Source: Aquihabitans sp.
GTDB taxonomy: Bacteria; Actinomycetota; Acidimicrobiia; Acidimicrobiales; Iamiaceae
NCBI GenBank assembly: GCA_025353965.1
Contig: JANXNS010000250.1
Span: forward strand, 1 to 33,742
Direction of reading: 5' to 3'
DNA: 33,742 nt
Shown: piece after piece, positions 2,634 through 26,835 of the stretch
How the letters are laid out: every line of letters begins with the position of its first letter
Position numbering within the stretch: the stretch's first letter is position 1
Translations under genes and position numbers: made by a program
The notes under the pieces: generated by a model
Seen by the model: the letters and a program-made list of their open reading frames with translations, nothing else
Database searches by the model: none
Told to the model about the DNA's origin: nothing

Positions 2634-4163
<1,530 letters not shown>

Positions 4164-16983: not shown

Positions 16984-19900
16984 TTACGCGTCGGCTGCGG
17001 TTGAGCGCCAGCGGTCGGCCAGGACATTGACCGGGGTGGTGAGCAACTCGATCGGGGCGATCCGGCCAAGCAGATCATCTCGGAAGGTCGGTTCGGTCTC
17101 GGTGACCGCGTCCTTGAGGGCCGCATAGCGGCCGCGATAGGCCTCCATGACCGACCTCATTCGGCCCGAACTCAGCTCTTCTGCAAAGCGACAATGCAGC
17201 AGGGTGATGCCCGTGCATTGGTTGCCCTTGACCTCGGGGATGATCACCAGCGCTCGACCATCGCTGCGGCCCACGGCCACGGTGACCTCGCGCTCGGAGG
17301 CGACGCGATGCTTCGTACCGCGGAGCAGGGGATTGCGTTCGGTCCGCAACGGCAGGCCTCTAGCGATGCCACCGCGGTCCACCACGACGATGGTCGCATC
17401 GGCGCCATCGACATCTCCTTCGATCCGGTAGCGGGTATACCCCACCACCTCCTCGATCGCGCTGTCGAGCCCGGCGAGGGTCCGGAGGGCCTTGTAGCTG
17501 AGACGATCCCGGGCAGCACCGGCAGTCAGCGCCTCGGACACGAGCGGAATATCCAGCAGGCCTTCGTCCGAGCGGGAGATTCCCACGGTCACCGTCTTGG
17601 CCTGATGCTTGATGGCATCGACTGGACGGGTGAGCTCCTCTATGGCACTAGTGAGCGACGCGGTGAGGTCCTCTATGACCATGCTCGGGGTTCCCACCCG
17701 CCCATGCTCACTCTGGTAGGCCTCCAGCGGGGCGATGCCGGTGGCATAGCGGAGCATGGACGACAACCGGACGGCGGTTCCGGCTTCTAAGTGACCGTTA
17801 TACGAACCCGAGCGGAGGCCATCGTGAAACCGCGCCGAGACGCTCTCGAAGACAGGGCGGAGGTCCGCCAAGAGTTGCTCGGCGTCCGCCACGACGGGCC
17901 CGGCCACCGCTTCTTCGATGGCCCCGCGAGCCTCACGAAGGGGCCGAGCCTGCGCATCAATGGCCAACGCGGCCTCATACCCGAACAGGTGGCCCACCAC
18001 GGTGGTCAGCACGAACGCCAAATCTGGGAGGACATAGGGGACGGTGATCACCCGAAGGGCAGCGTTGAAACGGTCTTCGTCCTCGGTGGCTATCACGATC
18101 GGCGTGGCCTTATGGGCCCGATAGATCGCAACTTCTTTGGCGACATCGTCCGCATTGGAACCCGACAGGCCCGCGGCGCACACCAGGATCAGCGGCTCCG
18201 ACGAGAGGTCAATGTGTTTCTTGTCCTCAATGGCATCCGACGCAATGGCCTTGTAGCAAAGCTCCGAAAGTTTGATTCGGATCTCCTCCGCGGCCACGCG
18301 GTTGGCGCCAGATCCGACAATCGCCCAGTAGCGGCGAGAAGGCGTGAGTTCCTGCGCGGCTTCGGCGATCACCGATCGCCGGGCCAGGGTTGCCTCCATT
18401 GCCGCAGGGAGGTCGCGCAGCCCGGCGAGTAGTTCGCTGCGGTGCACGGCCGCGTCGGTCGTGCCCGGTACCTCTTGCGAAATGGCGGCGGCGAGCAGAA
18501 ACCCGGCGGCAATCTGAGCGTAGAAGGCCTTGGTGGAAGCAACGCTCATCTCCACATCGCGACCGTCAGAGGTGTAGAGCACGCCGTCGCTCTTGTCGGT
18601 GAGGTCGCTGGCCCGCCGGTTGACGATGGCCACCACGAGCGCACCGCGGCCTCGGGCCAGATCAACCGTTCGGTTGGTGTCGGTGGTAGTGCCGGACTGG
18701 CTGATGGCCACGATCAAGGTGTCGGACATGTCTGACCGGAGCGAAAAACCGGAGAGTTCGGTGGCCGGGAGCGCTTCTACGCGGACCGGGGTTCCGGCCA
18801 GCTCGGTGGTGAGGGCCCGGGCCAAACTTTGGCCGGCAACTGCGGCCGTGCCCTGCCCGATGACCTGGACCCGCGAGATGGCTCCCGAGCGCAGCCCCGC
18901 ACGGATGGAGTCCGGAAGGGTGTCAGGACCCAGCGTGACTCGCAGCAGTCCATCGGCCCCGGGGGCGATCTTGCCGCGGAGCGTCTTACGGAACGAGCCC
19001 GGTGCCTCCTCGATTTCTTTGAGCAAGAAATGTTGGTAGGTACCTCGATCGATGTCCCGGGTGGTCACCTCCGGGGTCACCAACTCGGCTGCTGTGAGTG
19101 GCAGCTCGATGCCGTTGTAGGAGTACCGCTGTACCCCGCCGAGCGTGCCAGCCTGAGCCGCGTCCAGCTCCACTACCTGGCCACGAGAGGCCGACGGATC
19201 GGTGAGGTCCGCCGGGGTTTCGCCATCGAGACGGAAGTAATGACTGGCGTCTTCGACCACCCCATATGGCTCCGAGGCCACGATGTAGAGGTCCTCGTCG
19301 AGGCCCACATACAGGGCCTGGCCGCTCCCTCGCAGCGCAAGCTGGAGCCGGTCGGGAGCCGCCGCCACGTTGGCGGCGATGGCCACCGACCCGTCGAAAC
19401 GGCGCACGGTCTGGCGAAAAGCTTCCACCGATTCGTCGCCAGCCGTTAGGCGACGCGAGACGAGCGTGGGAATCACCTTGGCGTCGCTGGTGATCTCAGC
19501 CGCTATGTGGAGGTCGTCGGAGACCTTGAGATCAGCGAAGTTGTCGACATCACCATTGAGGGCGGCGGTCACGTACGGACCATTGGCATGGCCGATTTCA
19601 TCGGAGTTCATGGGGTGGGCGTTGGGCTGGGAAATGATCCCAATCGAGGCCCATCGGGTATGGCCCAACACGGTGACCTCGGCCTCGTTCGCAAGCAGCG
19701 CCCGATGCAGCAGGGCATCGGCCCGGATGGCATCGCGGAGAACACGGCTGTTGTCACCCAACTCGCCGATTTCCGCCGCCGCCTTGTACACGAGGCTCAG
19801 GTGGCCCTCCGGCGTGACCCGCACCGCTCCCGCGGTGAACAAGCCATCTCCGGACCGGGCACCAATGAGGGCCGTGACAGCGGGGTCGACGAAGTCCAGC

Positions 19901-20442
19901 CCATGGCCGCGGACCAAGAGCATGAGACCGGCTGAATCCCGCCCTCGTACCTCCAGGCGGTCAATGGCCGAGAGTGCGGCCTGGACCGACGCAAAGGCCT
20001 CAACCGCCGAGCGGGTCGGATCGGCCCCGGCCAGGTCGCCAACGGCACGGGCCGTCCGAAGCCGGTCGCGCTGAATCGCCCAGAGGGCGTCCTTCAGGCG
20101 AATGACCGCCGCGTTGACCGCTTCTTGGCCCGTTGGATCTGCTGGCTGCGCATCAAGCCCCGCTTCCCGGTCGGCGAGGGCAACCATCGCCGCTTCCACC
20201 AGGCCGCCGATGCTGGTGGCGAGCGAGCGATCGGCCAGAAGCGCCAGAATCCCCGGGGTGCCCCGCAGCAGCCGATCCACCTCATTTGCCTGTCCGGCCA
20301 GCGTGGCCACCACGTCGGCGAGATCGGCGGGGCTGGCGGCGCTGAGCCGGGCCGCACTGCCGTCGAGCATCCCGAGGAGCGTCGCTGACGATGGTGGGGT
20401 TCTCTCGCTCCGGCGACGGAGTACCGCAATGATGCCGCACAT
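16984..20442 (-). CDS. glmS: Over-long glutamine--fructose-6-phosphate aminotransferase-like protein
   Basis: 1152 aa against about 610 for ordinary GlmS, which makes glucosamine-6-phosphate from fructose-6-phosphate and glutamine. The start must be this ATG because catalytic Cys2 follows (MCGIIAVLRR). Residues about 12-163 are a helical Ala/Leu-rich insertion. The glutaminase domain then resumes with RGRDSAG (166-172), GHTRWAS (260-266) and NGDVDNF (296-302). SIS domain 1 has SQSGTTTDTN (581-590) and SVASTKAF (633-640). SIS domain 2 keeps equivalents of E. coli Glu488 (Glu727), His504 (His743) and the fructose-binding Lys603 (Lys949 in KHQAKTVTVG). About 200 further residues (955-1152) have no recognised domain. 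All catalytic residues survive, so GlmS activity is likely. It follows glmM, the next enzyme of the pathway, which supports the call. Confidence 0.87.
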   Translation of the reverse strand: MCGIIAVLRRRSERTPPSSATLLGMLDGSAARLSAASPADLADVVATLAGQANEVDRLLRGTPGILALLADRSLATSIGGLVEAAMVALADREAGLDAQPADPTGQEAVNAAVIRLKDALWAIQRDRLRTARAVGDLAGADPTRSAVEAFASVQAALSAIDRLEVRGRDSAGLMLLVRGHGLDFVDPAVTALIGARSGDGLFTAGAVRVTPEGHLSLVYKAAAEIGELGDNSRVLRDAIRADALLHRALLANEAEVTVLGHTRWASIGIISQPNAHPMNSDEIGHANGPYVTAALNGDVDNFADLKVSDDLHIAAEITSDAKVIPTLVSRRLTAGDESVEAFRQTVRRFDGSVAIAANVAAAPDRLQLALRGSGQALYVGLDEDLYIVASEPYGVVEDASHYFRLDGETPADLTDPSASRGQVVELDAAQAGTLGGVQRYSYNGIELPLTAAELVTPEVTTRDIDRGTYQHFLLKEIEEAPGSFRKTLRGKIAPGADGLLRVTLGPDTLPDSIRAGLRSGAISRVQVIGQGTAAVAGQSLARALTTELAGTPVRVEALPATELSGFSLRSDMSDTLIVAISQSGTTTDTNRTVDLARGRGALVVAIVNRRASDLTDKSDGVLYTSDGRDVEMSVASTKAFYAQIAAGFLLAAAISQEVPGTTDAAVHRSELLAGLRDLPAAMEATLARRSVIAEAAQELTPSRRYWAIVGSGANRVAAEEIRIKLSELCYKAIASDAIEDKKHIDLSSEPLILVCAAGLSGSNADDVAKEVAIYRAHKATPIVIATEDEDRFNAALRVITVPYVLPDLAFVLTTVVGHLFGYEAALAIDAQARPLREARGAIEEAVAGPVVADAEQLLADLRPVFESVSARFHDGLRSGSYNGHLEAGTAVRLSSMLRYATGIAPLEAYQSEHGRVGTPSMVIEDLTASLTSAIEELTRPVDAIKHQAKTVTVGISRSDEGLLDIPLVSEALTAGAARDRLSYKALRTLAGLDSAIEEVVGYTRYRIEGDVDGADATIVVVDRGGIARGLPLRTERNPLLRGTKHRVASEREVTVAVGRSDGRALVIIPEVKGNQCTGITLLHCRFAEELSSGRMRSVMEAYRGRYAALKDAVTETEPTFRDDLLGRIAPIELLTTPVNVLADRWRSTAADA

Positions 20443-24975: not shown

Positions 24976-25056
24976 GGTTTCCGACGCTACCCGGTCGCTG
25001 TCACAACCAGCCCCGCTCGATCGTCATGGTGGTAGTCATTCCAGAGGAGAGCAACC

Positions 25057-26394
25057 ATGACCGATCTGAGCCATTCCGATACCCACGCCACCATCAGCCA
25101 TTCGAGTGGCCCTAGCGCAGACCTCATCGACGTGATCGTCGTTGGTGGGGGGCTCGCGGGCCTCGTCGCGGCCGCCACGGCCGCCCGGAGTGGTCGGCGG
25201 GTGGTCGTCCTTGACCCACACCGGCTGGGCGGACGCGCACGCGTCGATGACCGCAAGGGTTTCCGTTTCAACCGAGGCCCTCGAGCGCTGTACCTGGGCG
25301 GCGCGGGCCGGCCGATTCTCGATTCGCTCGGCGTCGATACCCGCGCCGGAGCATCCCCTGCGGTCCCCCAGTCTCAGGGGCGCCACCAGGGCGAACTGCG
25401 CCTGCTCCCCCAGGGACCAGGCTCGCTCATGCGCACCCCGCTCCTACGGCCAGCCGAAAAGGTCCGGGTGGGCCTCCTCCTCACCAAGTTCCCCAAGCTG
25501 GACACCAAGGCCCTCGCGGGGACGAGTTTTGGGGCGTTCCTGGCGGAGCAGCACCTCGGCCCCACCGCCGCAGACCTGGTCCGGATGTTGGCCCGAGTTG
25601 CTACCTACGCCGCCGAGCCGGACGCCGCGGATGCTGGGGCGGTCGTCGGCAATATGCAACTGGCTCTGGCCGAAGGGGTCCGCTACTTGGACGGAGGGTT
25701 CCAGGCCATCGTGGACGGCCTCCAGGCCGCAGCGGCCAAAGCCGGGGTCGAATTCCGCGCGGTTGCGGCCACCAGTGTCCAGCCCGGCGGCTCCGCCCCG
25801 CCGGTGGTACACACGGCTCAGGGGCCAATCTCCGCAGCTTCGGTCGTGCTGGCCACGGGCACACCAGCAGCCGCGGCGAACCTGCTCGGGGCCCCCATTC
25901 TCGGTGCCGAGCTCCTGACCGCTCCGGTCACCGCCGCATGTTTGGAACTCGGGCTCCGACGCTCACCCCGCTACCCCGTGGTATTCGGCATCGGTGAGCC
26001 GCTCTATCTCAGCACGCACTGCCCGCCTGCGAAGCTGGCCCCGCCCGGACATGCCGTGGTCCACGTGATGCGCAACCATGCGGCCGACGAGCCGCTTGAG
26101 CATCACGAGCAACGGGCGTGGCTTTGGGCAGCTGCGCAGCAAGCGGGCGTGACCGAAGATGACGTGGTGGAGCAACGGTTCTTGGCCGAGATGGTGGTCA
26201 CCGGAGGCATGCCCACCGCGGTAGGCGGTGGCCTCCCCGGACGCCCCGCAGTGAGCAGCCCAGAACGGCCCGGCATCTTGTTGGCCGGAGACTGGGTGGG
26301 TGCGGTCGGACTGCTCGCCGATGCTGCCGTGGCCAGCGGGGCCGTGGCCGGGCAACACGCCGCGGCCCTCGCAGCCACGATGGCCACGACATGA
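25057..26394 (+). CDS. NAD(P)/FAD-dependent oxidoreductase (phytoene desaturase/amine oxidase-like)
   Basis: 445 aa on the plus strand with GAGGAG seven bases before the ATG. A 22-residue His/Ser-rich leader precedes the dinucleotide fold DVIVVGGGLAGLVAAATAAR (25-44), then VVVLDPHRLGGRA and the FNRGPRALYLGG segment typical of protoporphyrinogen oxidase/phytoene desaturase-like enzymes. The C-terminal FAD motif is GILLAGDWVG followed by LLADAAVASG. The substrate is unknown. In actinobacteria such oxidoreductases often lie next to ECF41 sigma genes, and an ECF41 fragment does follow here. The stop TGA is directly followed in the same frame by that fragment. Confidence 0.87.
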   Translation: MTDLSHSDTHATISHSSGPSADLIDVIVVGGGLAGLVAAATAARSGRRVVVLDPHRLGGRARVDDRKGFRFNRGPRALYLGGAGRPILDSLGVDTRAGASPAVPQSQGRHQGELRLLPQGPGSLMRTPLLRPAEKVRVGLLLTKFPKLDTKALAGTSFGAFLAEQHLGPTAADLVRMLARVATYAAEPDAADAGAVVGNMQLALAEGVRYLDGGFQAIVDGLQAAAAKAGVEFRAVAATSVQPGGSAPPVVHTAQGPISAASVVLATGTPAAAANLLGAPILGAELLTAPVTAACLELGLRRSPRYPVVFGIGEPLYLSTHCPPAKLAPPGHAVVHVMRNHAADEPLEHHEQRAWLWAAAQQAGVTEDDVVEQRFLAEMVVTGGMPTAVGGGLPGRPAVSSPERPGILLAGDWVGAVGLLADAAVASGAVAGQHAAALAATMATT

Positions 26395-26406
26395 CGCCAG
26401 CCGACG

Positions 26407-26835
26407 GTGGCCTCACGGGCCCGGCGCCGGGTGCAGGACCAACGGCCGCGCTTCTCCCCCACTGATGAGGCAGCCTGGGAAGTAACCGTTGCGTTCCTCA
26501 CCGCCGCGCAGGTCGGGGACCTCGACACCCTGGTGAGCTTGCTGGCCGACGGCGCGCTCGCCACCAGTGACGGCGGGGCGGACCATCATGCCGCCCGCCG
26601 CCCGATCATCGCCGAGAAAATCCCCCGGTTCATGGCCAACCTCGCCACCCGACTGGGCCCTACCGATGTGCTCATCCCGCACGTAGTGAACGGCCAGCCC
26701 GGTCTCGTCATCGAACGTGACGGCAAGGCGGGCATGGCCTTGTCGTTCTCCATCGTTGGCGGCCTGGTCACCAACATCTGGATCGTGGTCAACCCGGCCA
26801 AGATCCAAACGTTGGACTCGGCCCCCATCTCCTGA
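26407..26835 (+). CDS. SnoaL-like C-terminal domain of an ECF41 (SigJ-type) sigma factor, sigma domains missing
   Basis: 142 aa from a GTG. The first residues (ASRARRRVQDQRPRFSP) match the junction just after region 4 in SigJ/ECF41 sigma factors. The rest is the family's SnoaL-like extension: EVTVAFLTAAQVGDLDTLVS, LATSDGGAD, AARRPIIAEKI, HVVNGQPGLVIERDGK and the end IVVNPAKIQTLD. In ECF41 proteins this extension regulates sigma activity. Regions 2 and 4, needed for promoter binding, are absent: the frame is closed at 26392-26394 by the TGA of the oxidoreductase. No ribosome binding site precedes the GTG; reinitiation after the stop 12 nt upstream is possible. It may be a remnant after a deletion or a retained stand-alone domain. 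Confidence 0.72.
   Translation: MASRARRRVQDQRPRFSPTDEAAWEVTVAFLTAAQVGDLDTLVSLLADGALATSDGGADHHAARRPIIAEKIPRFMANLATRLGPTDVLIPHVVNGQPGLVIERDGKAGMALSFSIVGGLVTNIWIVVNPAKIQTLDSAPIS

Follow-up and report, generated by a model that had tools for sequence, protein, structure and literature searches.

What is represented by an open reading frame of 142 amino acids that resembles the regulatory tail of a sigma factor and follows, in the same frame, an oxidoreductase gene? The question is raised by a stretch of 33,742 nucleotides from Aquihabitans sp. (contig JANXNS010000250.1), hereafter called the window, where a preliminary description had recognized at positions 26407-26835 the remnant of an ECF41 (SigJ) sigma factor deprived of its regions 2 and 4. 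The coordinates, the oxidoreductase frame and the stop reported there all hold, and the reading frame contains zero internal stops. In ECF41 factors, the C-terminal extension touches the sigma linker and governs the activity of the factor: its partial truncation gives a hyperactive factor and its complete removal an inactive one (PMC3426412, PMC8999054). Their promoters, TGTCAC...CGTC/TGTT, precede genes for a carboxymuconolactone decarboxylase, an oxidoreductase or an epimerase (COE) (Wecke et al., 2012, PMC3426412), and the COE gene was the only detectable ECF41 target in the two species tested (PMC3426412). The account that we consider probable is that of a decayed ECF41 oxidoreductase-sigJ locus, resulting from a single private deletion of a kind that recurs in the class Acidimicrobiia.

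A shuffled stretch of the same composition stays open with a p of about 0.05; it is thus homology, and not the open frame, that carries the case. The profile search proposed in the preliminary description matched the NCBIfam SigJ family far beyond chance (NF007214, profile positions 151-290 of 293, E 2.9e-28), and the frame also matches TIGR02957 (positions 145-280 of 281) and aligns with Mycobacterium tuberculosis SigJ (PDB 5xe7) from residue 154 onward. It therefore carries the SnoaL-like C-terminal extension of ECF41 type as a remnant of SigJ, as had been claimed. Across the whole genome, the NF007214 match covers positions 144-290 only. Sigma-70 region 2 is absent from the window frame, where the match begins at 144-151, and so is the helix-turn-helix of region 4, of which VASRARRRVQ is all that remains (Table 1). 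No stand-alone family rose above threshold for the 142 amino acids, on which the Pfam SnoaL models also stay below threshold; a SnoaL family standing alone with this N-terminus would have spoken against a sigma factor origin, but none was found, and the relatives sharing that N-terminus are full-length SigJ proteins. An AlphaFold2 model of the extension (pLDDT 83) presents a complete SnoaL fold and has SigJ 5xe7 among its top structural matches (TMq 0.63); judged by this model, the remnant would adopt that fold in full.

Table 1. Features of the oxidoreductase-sigJ locus of the window and of three further loci in which an extension lacks sigma regions.
Feature	Sequence	Positions	Strand	Remarks
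ECF41-type target promoter, TGTCACA-N16-CGTC	Window	24999..25025	+	Upstream of oxidoreductase; intact
Shine-Dalgarno-like GAGGAG of the oxidoreductase	Window	25044..25049	+	Direct sequence reading
FAD/NAD-binding oxidoreductase	Window	25057..26394	+	445 aa; the "O" of the ECF41 COE set; apparently intact
Ancestral sigma start (ATGA overlap; ATG 26391-26393) with 24-aa dead-end frame MTPADGGLTGPAPGAGPTAALLPH*	Window	26391..26465	+	Start in relatives and translation
Deletion junction	Window	26394..26407	+	About 434-452 nt missing: sigma 2, linker, most of sigma 4
Surviving end of sigma region 4, VASRARRRVQ	Window	26407..26436	+	Aligned to ACRQVASRARRRVR of relatives
Complete SnoaL-like C-terminal extension of ECF41	Window	26437..26835	+	DGGADHHAARRP and NPAKI motifs; NF007214 151-290
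Oxidoreductase (first ~100 aa) fused in frame to extension	L096 (JAENWR010000125.1)	1418-2275
54-aa epimerase-like N-terminus in frame with extension, joined at DGGG motif	L133 (G492:C46)	1619-1179
CMD-like fragment joined in frame to SigJ region 4 end and extension	L081 (G088:C11)	3456-4094

The oxidoreductase, in which a Pfam scan recognizes NAD_binding_8 and Amino_oxidase domains, lies immediately upstream of the extension, in the linkage typical of COE partners, and ends in a TGA at 26392-26394 followed by C. The same pairing exists in relatives. The 60 related genomes searched contain eight close copies in which this oxidoreductase precedes a full-length sigJ, 290-301 amino acids long (interrupted in the sister genome G003, Aquihabitans sp. 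G128, NZ_CP077604.1), whose start overlaps the oxidoreductase stop as ATGA. The downstream neighbours of the window locus, rplQ and rpoA, also adjoin the pair in several relatives, indicating that it is the same locus. The full-length pairs that the preliminary description suggested looking for thus exist at the orthologous place, and they support its proposal that a deletion united the two genes of an oxidoreductase-ECF41 pair.

At the junction, ATGACGCCAGCCGACG is joined to GTGGCCTCACGG, with a breakpoint uncertain by up to about 15 nt. The distance from the sigma ATG to the Val codon of QVASRAR is 450-468 nt in relatives against 16 nt in the window, and the missing length leaves a remainder of 2 when divided by three in the comparison with seven relatives (G003 has an additional base). 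As the loss is not a multiple of three, the extension lies in a frame different from that of the ancestral sigma start, which now leads to a dead end after 24 amino acids. Without region 2 or the linker, and with little more than the end of region 4, the remnant cannot act as a sigma factor; the missing segment was not found by profile search on other contigs of the genome. Every other copy in the family of the window is full length and free of this deletion, and the locus combines the marks of a pseudogene fragment: longer orthologs, a lesion private to one lineage and a start out of frame. Three members of the same genus (G002, G007, G011) gave no extension match, and the locus is, in view of this, dispensable.

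The promoter motif upstream of the oxidoreductase, a perfect one and the single match in the window (0.07 expected), agrees with the ECF41 motif of Wecke et al. (2012; PMC3426412). The preliminary description had mentioned neither this motif nor the persisting sigma start, nor that the extension is out of frame with that start. The motif occupies the same place in all nine of the orthologous loci that are closest and in 17 of the 20 SigJ loci retrieved; 19 matches were counted against 0.24 expected. ECF41 regions 2 and 4 were not found elsewhere in the genome, either with NF007214 or with the sigma 2-4 profile; other ECF sigma factors are present; since no other ECF41 factor exists there, the promoter appears to have lost its reader. 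It would thus be orphaned, unless another sigma factor uses it. Activation of the partner gene by the remnant is expected to fail in the absence of regions 2 and 4. A wider regulon of this promoter was considered and set aside, as the genome gave three further matches to the motif and two to its reversed form, which is the chance level.

Regarding the age of the loss, the window branch of a common tree has a length of 0.373 substitutions per site in the extension and of 0.370 in the oxidoreductase, and the branch of its sister G003 0.154 and 0.160, respectively. The relative acceleration of the extension, estimated by bootstrap, is 1.33 (0.82-2.25), and the sister has an equal median. Of the positions invariant in the other nine copies, the window retains 33 of 35 in the extension, with conservative changes (R to K, V to I), and 77 of 79 in the oxidoreductase. 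The GC3 of the extension, 0.85, is at or above that of neighbouring genes. On the window branch, synonymous sites are saturated and the codon model traded time for omega, which makes its omega uninformative. An unaccelerated, conserved extension with high GC3 makes a long neutral phase unlikely; judging from substitutions, such a phase would fill at most a small part of the window branch. It follows from the equal rates that the deletion is recent, that the extension remains in use, or that the assembly is in error at this place. The alternative formulated in the preliminary description, recent loss or selection, fits the unaccelerated and stop-free extension, but an assembly error fits equally.

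Two observations on G003 may be added. Its sigJ (L047:3396-3525) has single-base insertions at two points, and a frameshift in glmM lies in the same stretch. A parallel decay of sigJ was dismissed because the frameshift also affects the conserved glmM, for which long-read indel errors are simpler; these frameshifts are probably uncorrected sequencing errors in a complete genome. Elsewhere in the window (16984-20442, minus strand), a reading frame of 1152 amino acids has a GlmS-like middle (SIS domain) with long N- and C-terminal parts, and is 85% conserved across 964 aa in G003.

Extensions without sigma regions are not exclusive to the window. In 395 genomes of the class Acidimicrobiia, matches to an extension profile were compared with those to a sigma 2-4 profile, and an extension was counted as sigma-less when it had no sigma 2-4 partner and no contig end truncated its N-terminal side. 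Of about 75 extension matches, five (~7%) were sigma-less: the window, G227 (L129), G402 (L132), G492 (L133) and G182 (L134), the latter retaining half of region 4. Two more, L096 and L081 (the latter in G088), were found outside this sample, and with them all three types of partner enzyme are represented. As in the window, the extension of L096, L129, L132, L133 and L081 is fused to the 5′ part of the COE partner gene or follows it; this gene is essentially whole in the window and L132, whereas in most of these five loci it is partly deleted. The junctions differ in each case and several are out of frame or startless (L132, L081, L129). In L132 the oxidoreductase is nearly whole and the extension lies out of frame, on a contig that ends just past the extension; L129 (JABSQH010000016.1) carries a frameshift; L081 is missing its own start and has an integrase-like reading frame close by. 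The promoter motif is retained in L132, in L096 (TGTCAC-N17-CGTC at 1557) and, with one mismatch, in L133 (a promoter-like TGTCACA-N16-TGTC upstream). Both L133 and L096 have a ribosome-binding site (GAGGAG in L096), and L096 would be, from its reading frame and signals, the cleanest candidate for an expressed enzyme-SnoaL fusion. The fragments of L081 and L133 are presumed, by sequence recognition, to be of a decarboxylase and an epimerase, respectively; a Pfam scan of the L081 fragment did not confirm the former.

Copies with a defective extension were also encountered (G125, G480). A bias toward sigma-less over extension-less remnants was examined and discarded (five against two in the 395 genomes, p = 0.45, not significant), and the short reading frames of G452, G101, G574 (C337) and G221 were rejected as contig-end truncations. 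Separately, L140:2296-3282 and G125:C17:33071 mark a pair of SigJ copies some 7 kb from each other whose region 2-4 scores are equal, one of them with an internal deletion and a frameshift in the extension. No sigma-less form was found to persist across species, although the genera of G402 and G492 are represented by one genome each, which gives the comparison no power there, and no close plasmid copies were found. The varied and mostly unusable junctions of these independent extensions favour recurrent decay by deletion.

Other explanations must be weighed against this decay. The organism could have a full-length sigJ of which the assembly skipped about 440 bp: the genome is in 264 contigs, all except the missing segment looks intact and unaccelerated, and a breakpoint within about 15 nt of a start codon is a little suspicious. 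Such an artefact is unlikely, however, given that no other contig of the genome holds the missing segment and that clean deletions of like kind occur in other, independent assemblies. As for a rare readthrough of the TGA at 26392 producing an oxidoreductase-SnoaL fusion protein, the common frame, the single stop and the C that follows it seem inviting, and the preliminary description had seen in them a leaky context. Nevertheless, TGAC is part of the normal ATGAC start overlap in six of the eight relatives, so that it is inherited and not a readthrough signal; the sharing of the frame has a one-in-three chance of arising and the spacer runs across leftover region-4 codons. This makes readthrough very improbable, and a stop evolved for that purpose is not supported.

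A closer matter is whether the extension, freed from the sigma factor, works alone as a functional SnoaL domain, expressed at a low level from GTG 26407 or by re-initiation, binding a ligand or acting in trans, for example on the oxidoreductase. A free function is possible, the sole positive evidence for it being conservation: the extension is unaccelerated and keeps its motifs and its complete predicted fold. Sigma-less forms do recur, and L096 and L133 are in-frame fusions with a ribosome-binding site and an ECF41-like promoter. Against this stand the lost start codon and the lack of a ribosome-binding site upstream of GTG 26407 and of every further start in the frame, so that the frame is without the start signal of a stand-alone SnoaL protein; the mostly unusable, case-by-case junctions; the absence of persistence across species; and the fact that an ECF41 extension regulates the sigma parts to which it is fused (PMC3426412, PMC8999054), none of which is left in the genome, leaving nothing for it to control in the known way. 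The suggestion that the extension works alone is thus in line with its conservation only, and we give it little probability. Even less probable would be a general process in which extensions are repeatedly freed by deletion and retained, free or fused to enzymes, as ligand-binding SnoaL domains under the old ECF41 promoter, with the window as an early stage in which the partner enzyme is still whole.

The order of the genes, the missing sigma segment, the preserved promoter motif, the lack of other ECF41 sigma regions and the unaccelerated extension are direct observations; it must be considered that a conserved, stop-free extension with intact promoter and oxidoreductase would also be expected of a functional domain. 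Recurrent decay would nonetheless order them as follows. Before the deletion, an operon would have been driven from the promoter at 24999-25025, and translation of the sigma factor would have been coupled through the ATGA overlap. A single deletion of some 430-450 bp would then have taken region 2 and the linker, together with almost the whole of region 4, leaving the intact promoter, the oxidoreductase and a 3′ sigJ fragment encoding the SnoaL extension, which, out of frame with the old start, most likely has no useful translation. The oxidoreductase would no longer be driven by this promoter. The loss, private to the species of the window, would be recent, and one of several independent sigma-stripping deletions in Acidimicrobiia. 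It has the look of ordinary decay, not of a novel device.

Such a locus illustrates the dying of a self-regulated sigma system, in which the promoter, the target enzyme and the regulatory domain outlast the sigma half. Sigma-less extensions also constitute natural material for the question of whether this domain can fold and bind its ligand without a sigma factor, and they are a warning that short "SnoaL" reading frames next to COE genes can be sigma remnants.

In comparison with known systems, the locus resembles the ECF41 (SigJ) COE systems (PMC3426412) in its upstream oxidoreductase, its TGTCAC..CGTC promoter and an extension with DGG and NPxK motifs, with homology to SigJ spanning the whole extension. 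It differs from them in having no region 2 or linker and nearly nothing of region 4, and a start codon in another frame. With stand-alone SnoaL/ketosteroid-isomerase-like proteins it shares the fold of the predicted model, whereas its relatives in sequence are the C-termini of SigJ rather than SnoaL enzymes that stand alone. The window locus is a decayed member of the known ECF41 system, and a real and clear deletion remnant.
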